DNA of 43,607 nt from Phycisphaera sp. (GTDB taxonomy: Bacteria; Planctomycetota; Phycisphaerae; Phycisphaerales; Phycisphaeraceae): contig WGMF01000050.1 of the NCBI GenBank assembly GCA_016125215.1, positions 1 through 43,607 on the forward strand, written 5' to 3'. The translations under genes were made by a program, and so were the position numbers. The notes beneath the pieces are model-generated. The model saw only the letters and a list, made by a program, of their open reading frames with translations. It was not told the DNA's origin and searched no databases. Shown here piece after piece: positions 2,931 to 20,175 of this stretch (positions are counted from its first letter, which is position 1; every line of letters begins with the position of its first letter).

Positions 2931-3494
2931 ATGAGGTCTAAAATGAGCATCAGCCATAAATCCAGTAACACTCAACTCTTCCGGTTGATGTTGTACAAAC
3001 GCGCCCTCCATCCTGAACTTTTTTCACTCCAGGGTCGGCGGACGGGTCGGCAGCCGGAATACGAGATCGAAAACTGGATCATCGCCGGCGGGCATATCGT
3101 CCGCTTTCAGGTCGGTCAGAATTGCCTCGTCGAGACCGTGATCGAGCGTGGCGACCACCTGCCGGAGACCGGCCTGGTCCATGCCCTGCCCTGTCTGGGC
3201 GAGAAGGACTACGACCTGAAGCCTGCCAACGACAGGATCGGCTACGTCACCACGATCCAGACCGAAACCCTCACCGACAACCTCTACATGGCGACCTACC
3301 GCGAGATGGTCGATTTTGCCCAGGAGACCGGCGCCCTGGCTTACCAGTACACCGAAGAGACCGCCGAAGCCGCCCCGAGCATCAGCATCCTCGATGTTCA
3401 ACGCTACAAACGCGAGTACCACATCCAGAGCTACCACCTCGTCGGTTCCAACGGCCTGGTCCTCCGCACGCAATCCATCTTCGAGCGCCTCTAA
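2931..3494 (+). CDS. Conserved hypothetical protein (possibly DUF2617-like)
   Basis: This soluble protein of 187 residues has no signal peptide or membrane segment. The visible order is an N-terminal LYKRALHPELF segment, a beta-rich centre (IIAGGHIVRFQVGQNCLVETVIE) that includes a Cys in a GQNCLVETV context, an acidic TYREMVDFAQETG helix, and a C-terminal YHIQSYHLVGSNGLVLRTQS segment ending in IFERL. The layout recalls single-domain DUF2617 proteins, but I am not certain. ATG at 2931 and at 2943 are both possible starts: the first follows AGGGGCC, the second GAGGT. It stands alone, with its own promoter and terminator, so it is a single-gene transcript. I cannot assign a function. Confidence 0.65.
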   Translation: MRSKMSISHKSSNTQLFRLMLYKRALHPELFSLQGRRTGRQPEYEIENWIIAGGHIVRFQVGQNCLVETVIERGDHLPETGLVHALPCLGEKDYDLKPANDRIGYVTTIQTETLTDNLYMATYREMVDFAQETGALAYQYTEETAEAAPSISILDVQRYKREYHIQSYHLVGSNGLVLRTQSIFERL

Positions 3495-9985: not shown

Positions 9986-10288
9986 TCAGGCGTCCCGCGA
10001 CACGTCGTTGATGTTCGTCGAGTGCTTGCGGAAGTAGTGGAATCCCATGAAGCCCAGCGAGCCGAGCACCGCGTACATCGAACCCATCATGTAGAGGATC
10101 GAGTAGTTGTAGCCGGCCGCGAGCTGCGGGGTCTCGGCCTTGTCCGTGCCGTTGCCGTCACCCGAACCCTCCGCGACCGTCTCGGCACAGTTCGGGCACG
10201 CACGCACCACACCGGGCACCACGCCCAGGAGCGACACGCACACCACCGATACCCACAGGCTGCTGCGAAACTTCTTCAACTTTGTCAT
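9986..10288 (-). CDS. Small secreted or membrane protein with CPNC motif
   Basis: This protein of 100 residues has an N-terminal signal (SSLWVSVVCVSLLGVVPGV, cut near VRA) followed directly by a CPNC pair, a short acidic Gly-rich stretch, and one membrane helix (YSILYMMGSMYAVLGSLGFM) with a basic cytoplasmic tail. The CxxC right after the signal peptide could bind metal or haem, or form a disulfide, on the outer face of the membrane. I recall similar small CPNC-plus-helix proteins as conserved in planctomycetes, without an assigned function. It starts 3 bp after the stop of the PDZ gene, so the two are almost certainly co-transcribed and coupled. Confidence 0.7.
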   Translation of the reverse strand: MTKLKKFRSSLWVSVVCVSLLGVVPGVVRACPNCAETVAEGSGDGNGTDKAETPQLAAGYNYSILYMMGSMYAVLGSLGFMGFHYFRKHSTNINDVSRDA

Positions 10289-10291
10289 GGC

Positions 10292-11074
10292 CTACTCCGC
10301 GGGCGGATTCTCTTGGAGGTTGTTCTCTTGGGGGATGTTCTCTTGAACCGGGGGCAGCGTCAACTCCGGGCCTTGCCCACCGGCGGTCGCGTCGTGGCCC
10401 AGCCCCTCACGGAAATCGTCCCACGACTTGTTGATCGCCTGACGCAGCGCCTGGTCATTGCTGTAGAGCTGCAGCGATAGCAGCGGCGCCAGCCGTACCG
10501 TGATGTTACGCACCTTGCCGTCGCGCAGCGTCTGGAAGATGACCTTCCCGCCGGCGGGCGTGTCCTGGATCAACTCGACAAATTCCTGCTGGATCAACAG
10601 CGCGTTGTCGTTGTTGCCCAGCGCCTTGCCGTTGGCGCCGAGCAGGATGTCGCCGACCTCGAGCGATTCGTAAGCCGGGAAACCCTCGAACACCGACGCC
10701 ACCCCCACCGCGGCCCGGCCAAGCTCGGGGAGCTCTTCCTTGGACAGGCCGATCGGCACGATCCCCACCGCACCCTTGTCGCCCGGCTGCACCCGCTTGG
10801 CCAGTTCGTCCCTCACCACGACGTGGTGGGCAATCGACAGCAACCGCTGGCGCTGCTCGGCGCTGGTCGCTCGGGAGTAAAGTTCACGCAGCGCCTCGCG
10901 GGTCAGCGACTCGTCAGCCAACATCCGCCTGGTCGCCGACTGACGCACCGAATACTCCGCGCTGCCCAGGTCGGACAGGTCGGCTGCGCTGTCCGCGCGC
11001 ACACACGGGCACCACACCGTGACACACACAGCGATTGCAAACGCCGACCGGAGGGTCCCGTCGAATAATCTCAT
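10292..11074 (-). CDS. Secreted PDZ-domain protein
   Basis: About 260 residues from ATG 11074, chosen because GGGGG lies just upstream and the signal peptide starts there (SAFAIAVCVTVWCPCVRA). A HEAT-like helical region (SAEYSVRQSATRRMLADES) follows. A PDZ domain spans about residues 110-210, with the peptide-binding strand region near GIVPIGL and the typical YESLEVGDILLGANGKAL, ending in RDGKVRNITVRL. PDZ domains bind C-terminal peptides, so it may recruit or sense envelope proteins; no protease domain is attached. The last 20 residues contain three QEN repeats encoded by a 15-bp tandem repeat. It is upstream of, and 3 bp from, the CPNC protein gene. An earlier in-frame ATG at 11101 is less likely. 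Confidence 0.75.
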   Translation of the reverse strand: MRLFDGTLRSAFAIAVCVTVWCPCVRADSAADLSDLGSAEYSVRQSATRRMLADESLTREALRELYSRATSAEQRQRLLSIAHHVVVRDELAKRVQPGDKGAVGIVPIGLSKEELPELGRAAVGVASVFEGFPAYESLEVGDILLGANGKALGNNDNALLIQQEFVELIQDTPAGGKVIFQTLRDGKVRNITVRLAPLLSLQLYSNDQALRQAINKSWDDFREGLGHDATAGGQGPELTLPPVQENIPQENNLQENPPAE

Positions 11075-11183
11075 GACCCCCAAGTATAGCACCCACCCCA
11101 TCGAACCCGTTCACTTGCGACCGGAGGGCCGGCGACACGTCCGCGGTGATTATTGACCATTGAATGGAAAAGTTCATTTCTGA

Positions 11184-11290
11184 TTCCCCCTCTCCCGCTT
11201 GCGGGGGAGGGGTTAGGGGAGGGGGTTCTTCCTTAAATCAGGTCAAATCATCACCCCCCCCGCCCCTCCCTCTGGAAGAGGGAGGGGAAA
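11184..11290. repeat. GC-rich dispersed repeat with two hairpins
   Basis: Two G/C-rich palindromes sit side by side. The first is CCCTCTCCCGC paired with GCGGGGGAGGG around 11188-11211. The second is CCCCTCCCTCT paired with AGAGGGAGGGG at 11263-11287. The CCCTCTCCCGCTTGCGGGGGAGGG type is a recurrent intergenic element in many GC-rich bacteria. It lies between the PDZ gene's start and the terminator of the next gene. No coding is seen here. Confidence 0.6.
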
Positions 11291-11321
11291 ATCAAGTTAA
11301 CTTATCCAGTCACTCATCAAT

Positions 11322-11361
11322 AAAAAGAGGTACGGCTCGAAGCAGGGGATACTTCGAGCCG
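11322..11361 (-). terminator. Terminator of the 11397 gene
   Basis: Read on the minus strand, a perfect 10-bp stem CGGCTCGAAG (11361-11352) pairs with CTTCGAGCCG (11342-11333) across a 9-nt loop. TACCTCTTTTTATT follows. It lies 35 bp past the stop of the secreted protein gene at 11397. Confidence 0.75.
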
Positions 11362-11396
11362 CACTCGATCAGGGGTCGGGGTTATCAGACAGTTGA

Positions 11397-11942
11397 TTAG
11401 TCCACGGGCCTGAGGACCAGTTGCAGTTCGTCCTTGTTTTCCTTGGGGGCACGGGGCACCATCGGGATCGGTTGCGTTCCGTTGCCGGGCTTTTCGAGGA
11501 TCATCAGGGGCTGGGGGTTGGTCACGCCCATCGCCATGTCGCCCGTCTCGTTGGGGTTGTTGGTCACGATGCGGGCGCCGTTGTTGACCTGCGCGGACCA
11601 GACGGCAAAGGCCTGCCGTATCGAGTGGTTGGCGGGCAGTCGGCGGAGCATCTCCTGGAAGTCCTCGCTCTTGGGGTCGAGGTAGATCGTCTGGTTGACG
11701 ACGCGGACCTCGATCAGGTGCGGGCGGACGGGCTGCTCCGAGAGCGATCGGCTGACGACGGACGAGCGGTCGACGATGTTGCGATTGATGACATAGGTGT
11801 CGTAGTTCCGGCCGTCGCCGATGCGTGCTCGGGACGGCGGGGTGACGATGCGAGCGGTGTGGTCGGCCTCGGCCCAGGTGAGCGAGACAGCCCCGCCCAC
11901 ACTCATGCCCCCAACCAGCGCCCAGATGGCATACTTAGACAT
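11397..11942 (-). CDS. Secreted hypothetical protein
   Basis: This gene encodes 181 residues from ATG 11942. The start is set by a strong AAAGGAG 8 nt upstream and by the signal peptide it creates (YAIWALVGGMSVGGAVSLTWA, cut near residue 23). The open frame extends further upstream, but without hydrophobic or conserved features. The mature protein has a mostly polar N-terminal half (DGRNYDTYVINRNIVDRSSV), a strand-rich centre (HLIEVRVVNQTIYLDP) and a C-terminal basic/acidic tail ending ELQLVLRPVD. I recognise no domain. The export signal and own terminator point to a single-gene unit for a periplasmic or surface protein. Confidence 0.65.
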   Translation of the reverse strand: MSKYAIWALVGGMSVGGAVSLTWAEADHTARIVTPPSRARIGDGRNYDTYVINRNIVDRSSVVSRSLSEQPVRPHLIEVRVVNQTIYLDPKSEDFQEMLRRLPANHSIRQAFAVWSAQVNNGARIVTNNPNETGDMAMGVTNPQPLMILEKPGNGTQPIPMVPRAPKENKDELQLVLRPVD

Positions 11943-12447
11943 CGTGTCTCTCCTTTGATTAGACACCGTCCCTCCCAGGTCGGTGTGCGTCTCGAATGTT
12001 GACCGAGGGTGGCGCTGGATCACCGCCACTCTCGGTCGTCCCAGATCGGGCCTGCATGGTCGGGGTATCACGAACCCTGACCGTCTCTTCTGCGAATCCT
12101 CCGGGCGACCCCGACCGTCTGACCGGCCGGGTTTCTTTTCCAATCAGGGATCAGGCAACGGGGGTGCCAGAGGGCCTGGCGGGGGGATGGGTGACGCAAG
12201 GCCATTGTTTACAGGGTGTTGCGCGTGCCGTGAGTGAATTGACGTGTCGCGCGGCCCTTGCCGGATGTTGCCTCGACGCAACGTTCGGTTTACCCGGTGT
12301 TCCACCGATGCCACACTTGGCCGTCGAGCGACGGTCCCCGCATCAGCCCCACAGACACGGACAATCGAATGGGATATCCTTTGAGTCCCAAAGAATCGGG
12401 ACGGACCCCGATCAAGATGTACCGCCGACCCGTCGGCACCTTACACC
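11943..12447. other. Intergenic region between divergent genes
   Basis: These 505 bp separate the secreted protein gene (-) from the MFS gene (+). The main visible structure is a near-perfect 14-bp inverted repeat at 12001-12037. Further right there are several copies of the word GACCGTCT (near 12080-12122), which may reflect duplication. Reading frames cross the region on the plus strand, but they lack ribosome binding sites and recognisable domains, so I leave them out. I find no RNA gene. Confidence 0.5.
12001..12037 (-). promoter_or_regulatory. Large hairpin in the leader of the secreted protein gene
   Basis: GACCGAGGGTGGCG (12001-12014) and CGCCACTCTCGGTC (12024-12037) pair at 13 of 14 positions plus one wobble, with a 9-nt loop. 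It lies 59 bp upstream of the ATG at 11942. There is no T-run on either side, so it is not a simple terminator. It could be an operator or a 5'-leader structure. Confidence 0.4.
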
Positions 12448-13635
12448 ATGTCACTACGCAATCGTCTGTTGCTGGTCACCTTTCTCGAAAGCGCCGCGAC
12501 GATCCTGCTCGAACGGGGGATTTATTTTTTCACCGAGCACATCCTGCGATTCACCAACGCGATGAACCTGGGGTTGGCGGTGGTATTCGGGTTCTGCTAC
12601 GTCCTCGGGGCGCTGGGCAGCCAACGCATCAGCGACCGCACCGGGACCCGTCGATTGGTGCTGGCCGTGATGGTCATCAATCTGGTGCTGTTGACGGTGC
12701 TGTGCTTCGTGCAGAGCGTGGCGATGATCTTTGTGGCCATGGTGTTCATGGGGCTTCTCAACGGCGTGAAGTGGCCGGTGATCGAGAGCTACGTCAGCGC
12801 GGGCAGCAGCGGGAAGGGGACCTCCGACGCGGTGGGCTACTTCAACATCTCCTGGTCGCTCTCGGTGCCGATTGCCTTAGCGGTGGTGGGGCCCTTGATC
12901 TACTGGCGTCAGGGCACAGCCCTGGGCGACGCGGCGCTGTTTCTCATGGGTATCGCGCTGAGCGTGCCGGCGTTTATGCTCACGTGGACGTTCCCCCGTC
13001 ACGCCACGCACCTGCCGCCGGACCACCCGCAGCGGCCGTCACCTGAAAAACTCGCGCGTCTGCGCCGCCTGCTCTCGGCCAGCCGGTGGCTGATGTTTGC
13101 GGTCTATTCCATGCTCTTTGTGCTGGCACCGCTGATGCCCAGCGTCTTTAAGAATCTGGGCGTGGGCATCAACTGGGGGCCGGCCGCCTCGGGCAGCCTC
13201 GACGTGATGCGGTTGATGTCCTTCATCATGTTGCGATTCTGGGTCGGCTGGCACGATCGGCGGTGGCCGTTGGTGGTCGCCATGCTCGGCGCGCCGGTAG
13301 GGATGGTGATGACGTTGCTGTCGGGATCGCTGCCGGTGGTGCTCGTCGGCGGGGTGATCTTTGGCTTGTCCGCGGGGATGGTGTATTACGCGGCGTTGTA
13401 TTACGCGATGGTGGTGAGCAACGCCTCGGTCGACGCGGGCGGTGCGCACGAGGGTGTGATCGGCTCGGGCTTTTTCATCGGGCCTTTGGTGGGATTTGCG
13501 GGCAATCTGATCGGGGCTGGCGTGGGCGACCCGATGATGGGCGTGGTGCTGGGGGCGCTGCCGATCGTGGTGGTGTGTTCGGTGGTGGGGTGGCGTAAGC
13601 TCGCGTGGGGGATGCCGGGGCGCGTGGGGGGGTGA
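12448..13635 (+). CDS. MFS transporter
   Basis: This integral membrane protein of 395 residues has about 12 hydrophobic helices. Between helices 2 and 3 lies GALGSQRISDRTGTRRLVL, which matches the loop 2-3 signature G...DR.GRR of the major facilitator superfamily. A central basic loop (RPSPEKLARLRRLLSASR, near residues 194-212) separates the two six-helix halves. The substrate cannot be read from the sequence. Neighbours face other ways, so context gives no hint. There is no clear ribosome binding site before ATG 12448. The gene shares an intergenic region with the divergent secreted protein and converges on the PhyH gene. Confidence 0.85.
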   Translation: MSLRNRLLLVTFLESAATILLERGIYFFTEHILRFTNAMNLGLAVVFGFCYVLGALGSQRISDRTGTRRLVLAVMVINLVLLTVLCFVQSVAMIFVAMVFMGLLNGVKWPVIESYVSAGSSGKGTSDAVGYFNISWSLSVPIALAVVGPLIYWRQGTALGDAALFLMGIALSVPAFMLTWTFPRHATHLPPDHPQRPSPEKLARLRRLLSASRWLMFAVYSMLFVLAPLMPSVFKNLGVGINWGPAASGSLDVMRLMSFIMLRFWVGWHDRRWPLVVAMLGAPVGMVMTLLSGSLPVVLVGGVIFGLSAGMVYYAALYYAMVVSNASVDAGGAHEGVIGSGFFIGPLVGFAGNLIGAGVGDPMMGVVLGALPIVVVCSVVGWRKLAWGMPGRVGG

Positions 13636-13649
13636 CCGCACATGGAAAT

Positions 13650-13676
13650 AAGAAACCCACCCTCGGAGAGGGTGGG
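13650..13676 (-). terminator. Terminator of the PhyH gene
   Basis: A 9-bp perfect stem, CCCACCCTC (13656-13664) with GAGGGTGGG (13668-13676), has a 3-nt loop. On the minus strand it is followed by TTTCTTATTTCC, a usable T-rich tract. It lies 26 bp past the PhyH stop and 20 bp past the MFS stop, so it may serve both convergent genes, with a weaker tract on the plus strand. Confidence 0.65.
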
Positions 13677-13701
13677 CGTTCTTGTGGGGGCATCAATACG
13701 C

Positions 13702-14643
13702 TCAAGATTTTGCGGCTACCGCCGGGGCGGCTTCCGGAGCAGGGGGACGATTGGCTTTGCAGGTGCGGAGCCAGACGGACTTGGGCGGGGTCTTGACGCC
13801 CTTCCACGCGTAGGGGTCGATGCCCGAGACGGGGACGATGGCCCTGCGGTCGGCGTTGGCCGGCCTTTCGCCCTCGGCAATGTCCCACGGCAGGAGCGAC
13901 CAGGCGTTCATGTAGTGGTTGACCAGCACACGGCGGTAGATGTCACTGCGGTTTTTTCGTGAGCGGTGCAGGAGGTAGCCGTTGAAGAAGACGACCGCGC
14001 CGGCCTTGACTTCGACGGGGACTTCCTTGGATTCATCGAAGCCGTACGACTCGGGGGCAAAGTCGAACTCCTCCTCGTTGTCGTGTGCTTTCTGTGGGTA
14101 GAGGTAGCCGGTCTTGTGCGAGCCGGGGACGACCCAGAGGCAGCCGTTCTGGATGGTGGCGTCGTCGATGGCAATCCACGCGCCGATGAGCGAGCGGTCG
14201 CGTGTGGGGATATAGATTTCATCCTGGTGCCAGGCCTGCCCCTGGAAGCCCGGCGGCTTGACGAAGAGCATCGACTGCATGCACTTGACGCTGCCGTCCC
14301 AGCTTCCGGGGGGCAGGTGCGCCGCGGTGATCTGGCTGAGGATGCCGCAGACCTTGGGGTGCTTGATGTATTTGAGTGTGACGGGGCTGACGTGGTGGGG
14401 CTGATGGATGCAGAGGATGTTCTTGAGCACCTCGCGGTCGGACATATTCTGCGCATCGTCTACGGGCTTGAGAGAATCGCAGGGGTACTTGCCGCGTGCA
14501 AGGTCGATGGTGTCTTTTTTGAGTTCTTCGAGTTCCTCGGGCGTGATGAGTCCGGGCTGGATGTGGTAGCCGTTCTCGACAAAATCCCGGACCTGCTGGT
14601 CGCTGAGAACCCTGGGCACGTCGATGCGCGTATCTGATGTCAC
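13702..14643 (-). CDS. Phytanoyl-CoA dioxygenase (PhyH) family protein
   Basis: This 313-residue protein belongs to the Fe(II)/2-oxoglutarate-dependent PhyH family, which hydroxylates diverse small molecules. The iron-binding triad is visible: His139 and Asp141 in AWHQDEIYIP, and distal His226 in NGYLLHRSRKNRS, where nearby Arg residues would bind 2-oxoglutarate. The order matches the family: an N-terminal VRDFVENGYHIQPGLITPEE segment, the jelly-roll core, then GCLWVVPGSHKTG. The Ala/Pro-rich last 15 residues look disordered. The substrate is unknown; planctomycetes carry many copies. It is transcribed away from the methyltransferase/ABC operon and may share regulatory sites with it. It has its own terminator. 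Confidence 0.9.
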   Translation of the reverse strand: MTSDTRIDVPRVLSDQQVRDFVENGYHIQPGLITPEELEELKKDTIDLARGKYPCDSLKPVDDAQNMSDREVLKNILCIHQPHHVSPVTLKYIKHPKVCGILSQITAAHLPPGSWDGSVKCMQSMLFVKPPGFQGQAWHQDEIYIPTRDRSLIGAWIAIDDATIQNGCLWVVPGSHKTGYLYPQKAHDNEEEFDFAPESYGFDESKEVPVEVKAGAVVFFNGYLLHRSRKNRSDIYRRVLVNHYMNAWSLLPWDIAEGERPANADRRAIVPVSGIDPYAWKGVKTPPKSVWLRTCKANRPPAPEAAPAVAAKS

Positions 14644-14723
14644 GGAATTTGCTCCTGAAGAGGATAATAGGCGTTGATCGCTAATTGGTAGGAAATTATG
14701 GGTATATTAAGTCTATCTGACAA

Positions 14724-14742
14724 GATATGGAGGCAGCATATC
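14724..14742. promoter_or_regulatory. Palindromic operator candidate upstream of the PhyH gene
   Basis: GATATG (14724-14729) and CATATC (14737-14742) are exact inverted half-sites with a 7-bp centre, about 81 bp upstream of the PhyH start in an A+T-rich stretch. This is the size of a dimeric repressor or activator site. No regulator gene lies next to it. Confidence 0.35.
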
Positions 14743-14797
14743 CATGCCTGATATTAACATCAAAATCGGCTTTTGACGAAATTCTCACGCCGAAAGG

Positions 14798-14825
14798 TTG
14801 ACCTGAGCGTCTCATCTGTTACGGT
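14798..14825 (+). promoter_or_regulatory. Putative promoter of the methyltransferase/ABC operon
   Basis: TTGACC (14798-14803) and TACGGT (14820-14825) are separated by 16 bp. This fits a sigma70-type promoter with a good -35 and a fair -10. Transcription would start near 14832, about 23 nt before the terminator-like hairpin. Confidence 0.45.
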
Positions 14826-14854
14826 GCAGTCTTAGGGTCACCCCTGACATCCCC

Positions 14855-14900
14855 GGTTCCCCCGCGTTTCACGCCGCCGCGTGGGGGAGTCTCGTTTTTT
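14855..14900 (+). terminator. Intrinsic terminator inside the operon leader (possible attenuator)
   Basis: Arms 14855-14866 (GGTTCCCCCGCG) and 14880-14891 (CGTGGGGGAGTC) pair over 12 positions, with three G-U wobbles. A TCG gap is followed by six T (14895-14900). No plus-strand gene lies between the divergent PhyH start and this hairpin. It can therefore only stop transcripts that begin in the leader: an attenuator of the downstream operon or the end of a small RNA. Confidence 0.6.
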
Positions 14901-14972
14901 ATGGGCGGTCGTGGAAAGGAAGGCTCTTGTCCGCTCGCCGGGCTTGGGTTGGAAGACAACAGGAACAAACCC

Positions 14973-15785
14973 ATGACACAGACCAATCCCATCACCGACC
15001 GCAGGCTCGCAGTGCGTCTGGGTCGGCCCTCTCTGTTTGATTTTCGATTCCCCGATTCCCGAAGCGGTCTGGACCAGGACGAAGCCTGGTGCGAAGCGAA
15101 TATCGACGGCAAGTGGCAACGCTTCCGCTTCCACGATTACCACGATATCTACGACGTGCCCGGGCTTTACGAGAGCCTTTTTTACCGTCGACTGCGGTGC
15201 AATTCCCCGGTACGCGTTGCGGGCCTGCTCAAGCGGGTTCTTCAAGACGCAGGCCAGACCCCGGAAAACCTCCGCGCCCTGGACCTGGGCGCGGGCAACG
15301 GGATGGTCGGCGTCGCCATGCACGACATCGGCGTGCCCTCGGTGGTCGGGATGGACATCATCCCCGAAGCCCGGGACGCCACCGACCGAGATCGGCCGTG
15401 GGTCTACGAAGACTACCACGTGGTCGACCTGACCGACCTGTCTGAAAAATCCGAAGAGCAGTTACGGTCCTTCGAGGCCAACCTGCTCGTGAGCGTGGCG
15501 GCGCTGGGCTTTGGTGATGTCCCCGACCAGGCCTTCCTCAAGGCGCTGGACCTCGTCGAGACCCCCGCGTGGCTGGCGTTCAACATCCACGAAAAATTCC
15601 TCGACGACGCCGACCCGACCGGCTTTGCCGCCCTGATCCGCACGCTTCAGAAGCTCGGCGTCCTGCGTATCCAGGCCCTCGAACGCTACCGACACAGGCT
15701 CTCTTACAAGGGAGAGCCGCTGCACTACATCGCCATCGTGGCCACCAAAGAGCTTGATGTCCCCGACGAGCTTTTCGAGCGGTGA
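14973..15785 (+). CDS. Class I SAM-dependent methyltransferase
   Basis: The gene encodes 270 residues from ATG 14973, which has AGGAAC 8 nt upstream. A Rossmann-type methyltransferase core starts near residue 110: motif I is ALDLGAGNGMVGVAM, followed by an acidic end of strand 2 in VVGMDIIPEARD and, further on, LLVSVAALGFGDVP. The N-terminal 100 residues are an extra cap with FRFHDYHDIYDVPGLYE. The methyl acceptor is unknown; the fold fits a small-molecule or protein N/O-methyltransferase. The stop overlaps the GTG start of the ABC ATPase (GTGA), so the three genes 14973-18183 are translationally coupled. That links the enzyme to uptake of a quaternary-amine type compound, though this is inference. 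Confidence 0.8.
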   Translation: MTQTNPITDRRLAVRLGRPSLFDFRFPDSRSGLDQDEAWCEANIDGKWQRFRFHDYHDIYDVPGLYESLFYRRLRCNSPVRVAGLLKRVLQDAGQTPENLRALDLGAGNGMVGVAMHDIGVPSVVGMDIIPEARDATDRDRPWVYEDYHVVDLTDLSEKSEEQLRSFEANLLVSVAALGFGDVPDQAFLKALDLVETPAWLAFNIHEKFLDDADPTGFAALIRTLQKLGVLRIQALERYRHRLSYKGEPLHYIAIVATKELDVPDELFER

Positions 15786-16591
15786 ACCCCGAAACGGTGA
15801 TCGAGTTCGACAGCGTGGAGAAGCGCTACGCCTCTTCCACGTCCGCGTCGCACAGCGAGACCATCGCGGTGTGTGGGGTGAATCTGTCGGTGCCCAGGGG
15901 TGAATTGCTCGTGATCCTCGGTGAATCGGGGTCGGGCAAGACCACTCTGCTGAAGATGGTCAACCGCCTGATCCCGATCACGGCCGGCTCGATCTCGGTC
16001 GTGGGCACGCCGACGAGCCAGACCCCGCGTCACGAGCTTTGCCGACGCATCGGTTACGTCTTCCAGGGCGTCGGGCTGATGCCCCACCTCACGATCAGCC
16101 AGAACATCGCCATCACGCCCGCGCTGCTCGGCTGGCCACGCGAGCGCATCCGGGCGCGCGTTGACGAACTCTTACAGCTTGTCAGTCTCCCCCCCGGGGA
16201 CTACCGCGACCGACTGCCGCGCCAGCTCTCGGGCGGTCAACGCCAGCGCGTCGGGGTTGCCCGCGCACTGGCCGCCGAGCCGGGCATTGTGCTCATGGAT
16301 GAGCCCTTCGGCGCGCTGGACCCGCTCACACGCGACCAGCTCCAGCGCGAGTACCGCGCCATCCACGACCGCCTCGGACTCACCACGGTCATGGTCACGC
16401 ACGACATGACCGAGGCCCTGCTTTTAGCCGACCGCATCGCCGTGATGAAAGAGGGCACGCTCCTGCGTGTCGGTTCGCCGCACGAACTGCTCACCGAACC
16501 GGGCGACGAGTACACCGCTGCGCTGATGCGGACCCCACGAGAGCAGGCCGACCGAGTTGAAGCCCTCATCGCCGAGGGGGGCCGAGCGTGA
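15782..16591 (+). CDS. Osmoprotectant/quaternary-amine ABC transporter ATP-binding protein (OpuCA-like)
   Basis: This 269-residue ATPase would power the permease encoded next. Walker A is GESGSGKTT (near residue 44), the Q-loop is in GYVFQGVGLMPHL, the signature is LSGGQRQRVGVARAL, Walker B is GIVLMDEPFGALD, and the switch His is in VMVTHDMTEALLLADR. The F-G-A-L-D version of Walker B and the MTEALLLADRIAVM stretch are typical of the glycine betaine/choline/OpuC branch. It is shorter than ProV (about 400) because it lacks the C-terminal CBS pair. It starts with GTG overlapping the methyltransferase stop, and its own TGA overlaps the GTG of the next gene. Confidence 0.9.
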   Translation: MNPETVIEFDSVEKRYASSTSASHSETIAVCGVNLSVPRGELLVILGESGSGKTTLLKMVNRLIPITAGSISVVGTPTSQTPRHELCRRIGYVFQGVGLMPHLTISQNIAITPALLGWPRERIRARVDELLQLVSLPPGDYRDRLPRQLSGGQRQRVGVARALAAEPGIVLMDEPFGALDPLTRDQLQREYRAIHDRLGLTTVMVTHDMTEALLLADRIAVMKEGTLLRVGSPHELLTEPGDEYTAALMRTPREQADRVEALIAEGGRA

Positions 16592-18183
16592 CGCAGAATA
16601 TCTTCGAACAGTTCGGGGCGTTGCCCGTGCTGCTCGCGGCCCACCTCAAGCTCACGGTCGTGGCGCTCGTGGCGGGGCTGGGGGTCAGCATCCCGGCTGC
16701 GATCCTGGCTATCCGTGTTGCAAGGTTGCGTTACCCCATGCTCACGGCGGCCGGCGTCGTGCAGACCGTCCCCTCGCTGGCACTGCTCGCGCTCATGGTG
16801 CCCGCGCTCGAACTCATCCGTCGCACGGGGGTCAACATCTCCTCCTTCGGTTTCGTCCCCGCCGTGATCGCGCTGACGATGTACTCCATCCTCCCGATCC
16901 TGCGCAATACGGTGACGGGGGTGATGAACATCGAGCCGGCCATCATCGAGGCGGCACGGGGCGTGGGCATGACCGACGCGCAGGTGATGCGCCGGGTGCA
17001 GCTGCCGCTTGCGGCCCCGGTGGTCATCGCGGGCATCCGCACCGCGGCGGTGTGGGTCGTGGGGATTGCCACACTGGCCACACCCATCGGCCAGCCGTGT
17101 CTGGGGGACTACATCTTCACCGGGCTGGGCACACGGAACTGGGTGATGATCCTCTTCGGCGTCGTCTTTGCGGCGCTGTTGGCGGTCATCCTCGATGCGC
17201 TGATTGCCGGGGTGCAGCGCTCACTCGACACGCGCAGGCCCACGTTGGGCTGGTCGTGTGGGGCGGCGTTGGCGGTGGTATTCGTCGGCGGGCTTGTTTT
17301 GCCGTCGCTCGTGTCACGGGGGGCGGTGGGGGAGCACGAATTCGAACAGACCGTTGAATCCGACCCTGCCACGCTCGGGCCGATCCGCATCGGTGCCAAG
17401 ACTTTCACCGAACAGTTCATCCTTGCAAGGCTGATCGACCACGTCCTGACCGACGCGGGTTACGCCACGAAGCGCACGGAGAACCTCGGCTCGACCATCG
17501 CCTTCGACCAGCTCAAAGCCGGCAACCTCGACGTGTTCGTCGATTACTCCGGCACCGTCTGGGCCAATGACATGAAGCGCACGGGTAATGCTTTACCCAA
17601 TCGCGTGCTCGAAGAGATCACCTGGTGGCTCGCCCGCAAGCACAACATCCGATGCCTGGGTTCGCTGGGTTTTGAGAACAGCTACGCGCTGGCGATGCGA
17701 CGCGATCTAGCCCAGCAACTGGGCATCCAGACCATCGCCGACCTCGTGCCCCACTCCCCGGGCATGGTGATCGCGGGGGACTTTGAGTTTTTCGGTCGGC
17801 CGGAGTGGCGGGCGCTGCGTGACGGGTACAGTCTGGCGTTCAAAGACCAGAAAGGCATGAACGCCACGCTCATGTATGAGGCTGTCAAGACGGGCGACGT
17901 CGACGTGATCTCCGCATTCTCGACGGACGGTCGCATCTCCGCCTTTGACCTGCTTGTGCTCGGTGACCCCAAGCGGGTCATCCCGCCCTATCACGCTGTG
18001 CTGCTTGTCGGGCCGCGGGTCGCCTCGGACAAACGATTGATCCGCACGCTGCGTCCGCTTGTCGGGGCCATCACGCTGGAGATGATGCAAAACGCTAACG
18101 AAGTTGTGGACGTGGAGGGCCAGCCGATTTCCCAAGCCCTGATGCAGTTGCAAACCCGGATTGAAAAAGAGATTCCACGTTGA
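16588..18183 (+). CDS. Fused permease and substrate-binding protein of an osmoprotectant-type ABC transporter
   Basis: Two normally separate subunits are joined in these 531 residues. Residues 1-210 are an OpuCB/ProW-like permease with five or six helices and the EAA loop (EAARGVGMTDAQVMRRVQLP). A further helix (AALAVVFVGGLVLPSLV) leads into an OpuCC-like periplasmic binding domain from about residue 265 (IRIGAKTFTEQFILARLIDH, NLDVFVDYSGTVW, GFENSYALAMR, ISAFSTDGRI and VIPPYHAVLLV). The linker tethers the binding domain to the outer face of the membrane. Such fusions include GbuC/ProX-type and EgtUBC-type systems, so the ligand could be betaine, choline, carnitine or ergothioneine. GTG start overlaps the ATPase stop. 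Confidence 0.88.
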   Translation: MTQNIFEQFGALPVLLAAHLKLTVVALVAGLGVSIPAAILAIRVARLRYPMLTAAGVVQTVPSLALLALMVPALELIRRTGVNISSFGFVPAVIALTMYSILPILRNTVTGVMNIEPAIIEAARGVGMTDAQVMRRVQLPLAAPVVIAGIRTAAVWVVGIATLATPIGQPCLGDYIFTGLGTRNWVMILFGVVFAALLAVILDALIAGVQRSLDTRRPTLGWSCGAALAVVFVGGLVLPSLVSRGAVGEHEFEQTVESDPATLGPIRIGAKTFTEQFILARLIDHVLTDAGYATKRTENLGSTIAFDQLKAGNLDVFVDYSGTVWANDMKRTGNALPNRVLEEITWWLARKHNIRCLGSLGFENSYALAMRRDLAQQLGIQTIADLVPHSPGMVIAGDFEFFGRPEWRALRDGYSLAFKDQKGMNATLMYEAVKTGDVDVISAFSTDGRISAFDLLVLGDPKRVIPPYHAVLLVGPRVASDKRLIRTLRPLVGAITLEMMQNANEVVDVEGQPISQALMQLQTRIEKEIPR

Positions 18184-18303
18184 TGGAAACCCGGACGGGT
18201 GGATTGCGTCTAACACACAGATCGTGATTTGCCCCCACCCATTGGGGGTCATACGCTATACCGTTCTGTAAACTCATTTTCTCCACACAACAGGAGTTCG
18301 ATC

Positions 18304-20175
18304 ATGGTGGTCAGCCGACGCTTGACAGGGGTATGGATGGGATTGGTCGCAACCGTTCTGGCGCTGGCTGCCTTGCCGCACGCACAGGCCGCGCCGGCAG
18401 TCCTCGACGAATTGCCCGACGGCGTGCCGATGGCGGTTGTCGTGCCGAGCCTGTCCGGCCTGGACGCCAAGGTGAAGATGGTCGCCAACGCGATGGGCAT
18501 GATGGCGCCGGAGATGATCGACGTCGTCGGCCAGATCAAAGCCGAGACCGGCATCAACGCGGGGCTGAACGCCGACGGTGCCGCGGTCTTCGTGATCCTC
18601 GCGCCGCTGCCGACCTATGAAAACATGAAGAAGGGCCAGGAGCCGGAGATGGCGGTGCTCGTGCCCATCACCGATTACAAGGCCTTCCTCTCGAACTTCA
18701 ACGCCCAGCCGGCCGAGGGCGTCGTGGCTGTCACGATGAAAGACGGCTCGCCGGCGTTCACCAAGCAGGTCGGCTCCTACGCGGTGCTCAGCCCCAAACA
18801 GGCCGCGGCCGAGGGCTACCAGCCGGGCAAGAAGTCCGCACAGGTCATCGACAGCGTCAGCGCCCTGGGCAAGAGCGTGCTCGAGGGCAGCGATGCGTTC
18901 ATCTACATCAACCTCCAAGCGATCGAGCCTCTGGCCATGCCCGCGCTGGCTGAGGGTCGGGCTCAGATGGCCCAAGACCTCCAGGCTGCCGGCGCGGTGC
19001 TGCCCGGTGTCCAGGAGTACCTCACGATGTACCTCGACGCGGTCGAGGCGGTCGTGCGTGACGGGCGCGGCGTGGTGATCGGCCTGGGCGCCAACGAACT
19101 GGGCATCCACATCACCAAGGCCGCGGCGTTCGACCCCGGCTCGGCTACGGGCAAGATGTTCAAAGCCGGCGGCGACGCCAAGGGCCCCATGGAACACCTG
19201 CCCAACCAGGACTACCTCTTCGCCGGCGCGGTGGACATGCAGGCCCTGGCGGTGGGCGACCTGATCGACAAACTCATGGCCGGCCTCGAAAAGATGCCGA
19301 TGACCGCGGGTATGGTCGGGGCTGTCAAGCCCCTGATCCCCTCGATCAAACAATCCAAGGGCATTGCCTTCCTGATGACCCCGCCCGACCAGGCCAACAT
19401 GATGGCCGGCGGTTTGTTCAAGGGCGTCAACATCATCCACGCCGCCGACGCCCCCGCCATGAGCAAGGCCTATCAGGATGTCATCACCAACATGAACAAC
19501 CTCGCCATCGAGATGCCCGCGGTCCCCGACCCGCAGACCGGTCAGGTCGACCCCAACGCACCCAAGATGAAGATGACCTACACCACGCAATACACGCCCA
19601 ACGTCCTGCAGATCGACGGCGTCAACGTGGATCAGTACAACGTCTCGGTGCAGTTGCCCCCCGAGATGATGCAGGCCAACCCCATGATGGGGCAGATGAT
19701 GATGATGACCGGGGCCGGCAACCAGACCGGCTACATTGCCACGCAGGGTGAGTACGTCGTCATCACGACCTCCGCTGACGCCGCCGCGGTCCGGGCTGCG
19801 ATCGACTCGGTCAAGAACGGCCAGGGCCTCGGCACGGATCAGACCATCGCACAAGTGCGTGAGCAACTCGGCCCCAAGCCGGCGATGGAGGCCTACATCA
19901 ACGTCCGCACCATCCTCAACCTCGGCAACATGTTCGCGGGCATGTTCCTCGGCCAGGCGCTTCAAATCCCCGAAAAACTCCCGCCCGTGGCCATGTCCAT
20001 GAACGTCGAAGATGCCGCGATGCAAGGCAAGCTCTTCGTCCCCATCTCCGTCATCAAGGCGATCAAGGACATTGCCGACCAGGTCAAGGCCATCCAGCAA
20101 CAACAGATGCAACAAAACGGCGGCGGTCAGCAGGGCCAGGGCGACCAGGACGGCCCACCCCCCGCGCCGTTCTGA
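18304..20175 (+). CDS. Secreted Met-rich hypothetical protein
   Basis: The gene encodes 623 residues from ATG 18304, set by AGGAG 9 nt upstream and by the signal peptide that follows (MGLVATVLALAALPHAQA, cut before APAV). The mature protein starts AVLDELPDGVPMAVVVPSLS and alternates hydrophobic strands with Met-rich helices (ANAMGMMAPEMIDVV; later PMMGQMMMMTGAG). The layout recalls planctomycete DUF3352-like periplasmic proteins, but I cannot confirm the family. The last 30 residues are Gln/Gly-rich and disordered. It has its own terminator and is followed by sppA on the same strand. A function cannot be assigned. The long open frame on the opposite strand is a composition artefact. Confidence 0.75.
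   Translation: MVVSRRLTGVWMGLVATVLALAALPHAQAAPAVLDELPDGVPMAVVVPSLSGLDAKVKMVANAMGMMAPEMIDVVGQIKAETGINAGLNADGAAVFVILAPLPTYENMKKGQEPEMAVLVPITDYKAFLSNFNAQPAEGVVAVTMKDGSPAFTKQVGSYAVLSPKQAAAEGYQPGKKSAQVIDSVSALGKSVLEGSDAFIYINLQAIEPLAMPALAEGRAQMAQDLQAAGAVLPGVQEYLTMYLDAVEAVVRDGRGVVIGLGANELGIHITKAAAFDPGSATGKMFKAGGDAKGPMEHLPNQDYLFAGAVDMQALAVGDLIDKLMAGLEKMPMTAGMVGAVKPLIPSIKQSKGIAFLMTPPDQANMMAGGLFKGVNIIHAADAPAMSKAYQDVITNMNNLAIEMPAVPDPQTGQVDPNAPKMKMTYTTQYTPNVLQIDGVNVDQYNVSVQLPPEMMQANPMMGQMMMMTGAGNQTGYIATQGEYVVITTSADAAAVRAAIDSVKNGQGLGTDQTIAQVREQLGPKPAMEAYINVRTILNLGNMFAGMFLGQALQIPEKLPPVAMSMNVEDAAMQGKLFVPISVIKAIKDIADQVKAIQQQQMQQNGGGQQGQGDQDGPPPAPF

Follow-up and report, generated by a model that had tools for sequence, protein, structure and literature searches.

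A terminator-like hairpin in the leader of a methyltransferase/ABC transporter operon of a Phycisphaerae-type bacterium, possibly a weak attenuator

A compact hairpin followed by a run of six T residues (T6) lies in the 5' leader of an operon encoding a methyltransferase, an ABC ATPase, and a fused permease/binding protein in a Phycisphaerae-type bacterium (Phycisphaera sp., contig WGMF01000050.1; the 43,607 nucleotides analyzed are called the window below). A sequence-only reading had placed a terminator-like hairpin with T6 between a plausible promoter and the first ATG, and rereading of positions 14855 to 14900 confirmed it. The hairpin and its T-run are real and nonrandom. We tentatively interpret them as a weak, promoter-proximal, intrinsic-terminator-like hairpin that may act as an attenuator. 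Transcription would start near 14832, the hairpin and T6 would be formed in RNA within about 70 nt of the start, a share of polymerases would stop at T6, and the remainder would read on to the ATG at 14973; as an attenuator, the hairpin would lower, and perhaps tune, operon expression. The best reading is that of a lineage-restricted attenuator lacking an aptamer and probably ordinary in kind. Our favored ranking puts a weak promoter-proximal terminator first, then a nonterminating stem-loop, and then translation control. The features of the region are given in Table 1.

Table 1. Predicted features of the divergent intergenic region and the flanking genes (positions in the window)
Feature	Position	Strand	Basis or remark
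Predicted promoter of the methyltransferase/ABC operon, TTGACC-N16-TACGGT	14798..14825	+	direct reading
-35 box TTGACC; 16-nt spacer; -10 box TACGGT	14798-14803; 14820-14825	+	
Small stem-loop (6 pairs) where the transcript is expected to begin	14832..14847	+	fold of 14832-14900; short
Terminator-like hairpin, 13 stacked pairs (4 G-U), 11-nt loop	14855..14891	+	
TCG spacer (14892-14894), then T6 (14895-14900)	14892..14900	+	
Remaining leader, in frame and uninterrupted from the alternative start ATG 14901	14901..14972	+	
AGGA ribosome-binding site	14961-14964	+	8 nt ahead of ATG 14973
SAM-dependent methyltransferase, first gene of the operon	14973..15785	+	PF13489 and homologues
ABC ATPase, glycine-betaine/choline type	15782..16591	+	best match TIGR01186
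Fused ABC permease and substrate-binding protein	16588..18183	+	PF00528, PF04069, PDB relatives
PhyH, read opposite to the operon	13702-14643	-	
Predicted PhyH promoter TTGTCA-N17-CATAAT	14695..14723	-	strict promoter scan
Perfect dyad GATATG-N7-CATATC, a possible operator, located between the two divergent promoters	14724..14742	.	sequence

As had been stated before, PhyH is read the other way, and the hairpin lies in the operon's own leader. The distance from the -10 box to the hairpin is 29 nt; with a start expected at about 14832, only the 6-pair stem-loop and about 7 nt would precede the hairpin in the nascent RNA. Because this leaves little room for an aptamer, any input to an attenuator would more likely come from a protein, from translation, or from the speed of the polymerase than from an RNA-bound small molecule. 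With regard to a leader-peptide attenuator, two small plus-strand frames (14727 to 14801 and 14773 to 14835) precede or span the predicted promoter, and inspection by eye revealed no ribosome-binding site before either of them.

The hairpin had been described as 12 bp long; its presence stood, and folding revised its size to 13 stacked pairs, of which 4 are G-U. Its folding energy is -19.1 kcal/mol alone and -20.3 kcal/mol with the tail, and 6 of 200 shuffles of the 46-nt hairpin plus tail folded at least as well. Chance expectation was evaluated using 3,000 dinucleotide shuffles each of the leader (14826 to 14972) and of the whole intergenic region (14644 to 14972). A dG of <=-19 with T>=6 was reached in 19 of the 3,000 leader shuffles; a helix of >=9 with T>=5 and a gap of <=4 in 18; a helix of >=12 stacked pairs in 1; and a loose combination (i.e., dG of <=-15 with T>=5) in 175. 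For the whole intergenic region, the same four criteria, in the same order, were reached in 2, 38, 1, and 71 shuffles per 3,000. Folded with its flanks, the leader was not more stable than its shuffles (148 nt, z = 0.57; 61 nt, z = -0.58), so the signal consists of the compact helix plus the T-run and not of overall stability. The hairpin stays favored in longer transcripts, with core pair probabilities of 0.68 to 0.82 for 14832 to 14930 and of 0.99 to 1.0 in the other three transcript lengths tried. It is absent from the sites returned by a strict scan, which limits the loop to 8 nt. T6 starts 3 nt past the stem, with TCG between, a spacing less than ideal for an intrinsic terminator.

These values bear on the second-ranked explanation, namely that the hairpin is a nonterminating 5' stem-loop, acting in mRNA stability or insulation, and that T6 follows it by chance. 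We consider this somewhat unlikely. The TCG spacer would weaken termination, the loose hairpin/T combinations are those found in 175 of the 3,000 leader shuffles, and GC-rich hairpins, mostly without a T-run, are present in the leaders of some relatives (e.g., four of one genus). The full helix with T6 is nonetheless rare (1 to 19 per 3,000 shuffles), and the locus carrying the nearest homologue of the methyltransferase (L003) likewise carries a T-rich tail at the corresponding place.

Rarity was also assessed on both strands of a 426,753-base genome sample made up of the window and 20 further stretches. Only three sites combined T>=6, a gap of <=4, and a helix of >=12: this hairpin, which is the only one in a divergent intergenic region, and two sites antisense to called genes. 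Relaxing the limits to T>=5 and a helix of >=9 with a gap of <=4 gave 26 sites (11 antisense to genes, 7 within genes, 3 convergent, 3 codirectional, and 2 divergent), in a sample with 45 divergent regions in all. Three of these 26 sites fall in convergent gene ends, which cover 8 kb on both strands, versus 11 in approximately 379 kb of antisense sequence, a density that hints, from few counts, that hairpin-T terminators are used in this genome. At T>=4, there were 66 sites, with 5 in convergent positions versus 6 on intergenic strands expecting no gene end ("antiboth"). The density is similar in these two strand classes, so terminators of the hairpin-T type do not stand out sharply from the rest of the genome and are enriched weakly.

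The promoter proposed upstream of the hairpin is poor by the E. coli consensus, its -10 box matching TATAAT at 3/6 positions, and a strict promoter scan of 10000 to 20000 returned no plus-strand promoter-like site. Despite the poor -10 box, recurrence supports it: TTGACN-N16/17-TAnGGT was found within 450 nt upstream of the methyltransferase at 10 of the 100 distinct loci (the window counted among them), versus about 0.2 per 100 loci by a rough uniform-base estimate. Four of these ten loci (L006, L007, L008, and L011) belong to one genus. In the genome sample, which is 11% intergenic, 6 of 13 occurrences of TTGAC-N-TAnnnT are upstream of genes; of the narrower TAnGGT form there are two copies, this one and another located within a gene. 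The sole promoter-like site of the strict scan (1 in total versus 1.4 in shuffles) is on the minus strand, reads from 14723 to 14695, and fits PhyH. A perfect dyad adjoins the -35 box of this predicted PhyH promoter. With up to 1 mismatch allowed, a whole-genome search located the dyad in one place, with no second copy, against approximately 2 predicted by chance for that many mismatches; its perfection and position are what speak for a possible operator. The promoters are as plausible a site of regulation as the hairpin.

The methyltransferase shares 59% identity with its nearest homologue, in L003, and no closer relative was found in 151 genomes, in 400 genomes, or among the best 80 of 407 loci, a set that may omit records very near the window's own. 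In a FastTree phylogeny, the window is sister to L003 (support, 0.93), followed by L004 (0.76) and then by L009 plus L010 (0.91). L003 has a hairpin (CTTGATCGG...CCGATCGAG) at 1254 to 1282, followed by TTTTGCTTT with a T4 run. This hairpin lies 8 nt behind the -10 box of a TTGACA-N16-TAGGAT promoter, and the ATG is at 1359; the T-rich run ends 67 nt before the ATG in L003 versus 72 nt in the window. A whole-leader MAFFT alignment of the pair misplaced the L003 leader, and local alignments were used instead. The local similarity score of the two leaders is 34, which was matched or exceeded in 15 of 3,000 double shuffles, and the L003 leader has the highest local-alignment z-score (4.4) of 97 relatives (60 shuffles each). 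The next leaders were those of L013 (z = 3.8; raw score of 35.5 versus 34 for L003) and L028 (z = 3.3), and neither contains a strict hairpin-T site. The stem sequences differ between the window and L003 and both pair; two sequences cannot establish covariation.

Most of the relatives studied lack the hairpin. L004 has a weak hairpin only, with 7 stacked pairs, before T5. L047, whose operon is of the same type, has a strong hairpin (-18.6 kcal/mol) with T5 that starts at 2780, a TTGACA at 2750, and an ATG at 2876. Its -10-like GAGGGT ends 1 nt before the hairpin, which makes the promoter doubtful or leaves the 5' arm of the hairpin partly untranscribed; this promoter is not listed under the recurrence rule. 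L009 and L010, from one genus and with the same operon, have promoters that align closely and leaders that do not. The leaders of L006, L007, L008, and L011, from another genus, have a predicted long GC-rich hairpin just past the promoter, mostly without a T-run. In this predicted structure, both partners change at 2 of 28 pairs, and few of the leaders contain a T-run; it was not accepted as the same element.

Enrichment across the family was evaluated under a strict rule (T>=5, helix of >=9, and gap of <=4) applied to the 300 nt preceding the point where protein similarity begins, a region that is therefore partly coding. Strict sites were found in 2 of 98 upstream regions, the window included, versus 11 of 1,991 control tiles of the same loci, and in 2 of the 16 codirectional methyltransferase-ATPase pairs, again with the window included. 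Looser rules gave 5 of 98 versus 38 of 1,991 and 9 of 98 versus 91 of 1,991. The window apart, no family-wide enrichment of hairpin-T sites was clear in these 98 regions versus 1,991 tiles. Overall, the attenuator interpretation is favored because the hairpin with its T-run is rare in both the shuffles and the genome sample, because L003 holds a similar element in the same slot, and because L047 has a hairpin with T5. It is weakened by the lack of clear enrichment in the family, the weak enrichment of hairpin-T terminators in the genome sample, the 3-nt offset of the T-run from the stem, the 4 wobble pairs among 13, the unconserved leaders of L009 and L010, and the doubtful promoter of L047. 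A broader version, in which an aptamer-free attenuator would follow the promoters of methyltransferase/transporter operons in some Phycisphaerae, with read-through set by a protein or the transcription machinery and with structure kept while the stem sequence changes, as between the window and L003, is improbable.

The leader downstream of T6 also allows a reading in terms of translation control, which we judge unlikely. Here, the start would be the ATG at 14901, its ribosome-binding site (GGAG, 14886 to 14889) would be hidden in the 3' arm of the hairpin, and T6 would be part of the spacer. This ATG comes immediately after the T-run, in the reading frame of the methyltransferase; L003 likewise has an ATG 1 nt past its T-rich run, from which the frame of its gene is open, and the start in L009 comes after TTTT. 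The codon score of 14901 to 14972 (-0.009) is ambiguous, falling between the coding (0.34) and intergenic (-0.41) means. The AGGA spaced 8 nt before the ATG at 14973 is, however, the better site, and by eye the earlier ATG of L003 has no ribosome-binding site. The match between the window and L003 past this ATG needs three one-base gaps, which shows that it is not conserved as protein, and the similarity of the relatives mostly begins near residue 20 of the shorter form.

A terminator in this position had suggested a riboswitch, a proposal that was not supported: we obtained no Rfam match at the gathering score, only 29 nt separate the -10 box from the hairpin, and the leader is not conserved in L009 and L010. 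Covariance-model searches gave no match at the gathering score for the leader or for any part of the window. A permissive search of 14600 to 15000 yielded two candidates, both rejected: the Pseudomonas sRNA P37 at 14749 to 14817 (E value, 0.35; 18.6 bits versus a gathering score of 50) and snoU82P (E value, 8.6). Among 34 relatives' loci (20 plus 14; 31 distinct, of 131), in which L047 and L119 are from one species, no match was found in the methyltransferase leaders, and the matches comprised one TPP riboswitch and four tRNAs. The TPP riboswitch (62.6 bits) is at 3226 to 3325 of L014, approximately 1 kb from the methyltransferase and outside its leader. Nor did conserved covarying stems emerge from related leaders, with L009 and L010 sharing the promoter and not the leader and with the relatives found being too distant (best protein identity, 59%) for covariation with the window itself. 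In the parts of the literature consulted, on riboswitches in Planctomycetes/Phycisphaerae and on the leaders of betaine, methyltransferase, and ABC transporter genes, nothing recognizable concerned this operon.

We estimate that a new class of transcriptional riboswitch, or of attenuator controlled by an aptamer, is very unlikely. It would suit the position of the hairpin, and transporter and methyltransferase genes are plausible targets. A segment 5'-GACAUCCCC could also pair with the 3' arm as an antiterminator (-11.3 kcal/mol versus -12.3 kcal/mol for the terminator arm), but alternative pairings of this kind arise readily where the arms are rich in C and G. The missing matches at the gathering score in the window and in the leaders of the 34 loci count against this class, as do the leaders' divergence among relatives and the little space for an aptamer after the predicted start, a space that disappears in L003 and L047 if their predicted promoters are right. 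The least probable explanation makes the hairpin the 3' end of a small RNA of its own, about 70 nt long. The promoter and the terminator-like hairpin would frame a 69-nt unit (14832 to 14900), but a DNA search of the genome with 14640 to 15000 gave no second copy, Rfam gave no match at the gathering score, and the strict scan offered no other plus-strand promoter-like site able to serve the operon.

The coupling of the methyltransferase to an ABC transporter of the quaternary-amine type, also proposed from the sequence, was borne out by profile matches and by recurrence in relatives. The methyltransferase matches PF13489 (E value, 9.8e-5; 22.6 bits, under the cutoff of 27) and gave no match in NCBIfam. 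For the ATPase, TIGR01186 is the best match (267.5 bits, under the cutoff of 326.6). ProX entries are the closest PDB relatives of the binding domain; the OpuBC/OpuCC (choline/betaine) and EgtUC (ergothioneine) binders are further down. The methyltransferase/ATPase association recurs in 16 of 100 distinct loci codirectionally and in 8 of 100 divergently, counts in which one of the 16 (L037) had no ATPase match in a separate search and some loci end too early to be judged. A methyl-donor or osmolyte signal for the operon is a guess.

If transcription does stop at the hairpin, it would provide a handle on the control of a recurring, uncharacterized methyltransferase/transporter operon and would add to the examples of leader attenuation from beyond the standard model bacteria; if it does not, the hairpin would be an ordinary 5' stem-loop. 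The fused permease/binding layout has been reported for EgtUBC and OpuF (PMC9732360). The present operon resembles OpuF/EgtU, as described there, in combining an ATPase with a fused permease and binding protein, and differs in that a methyltransferase comes first and ProX is closer by sequence. Transcriptional riboswitches likewise place a hairpin and T-run upstream of metabolic or transport operons, whereas this leader has no recognized aptamer, little space after the predicted start, and no conserved leader found among its relatives. Premature termination in the 5' untranslated regions of E. coli is the subject of PMC7815308. Unlike leader intrinsic (Rho-independent) terminators and attenuators, the element described here has its T-run 3 nt off the stem and is predicted from sequence; like them, it places a GC-rich hairpin and a T-run between the promoter and the first gene.
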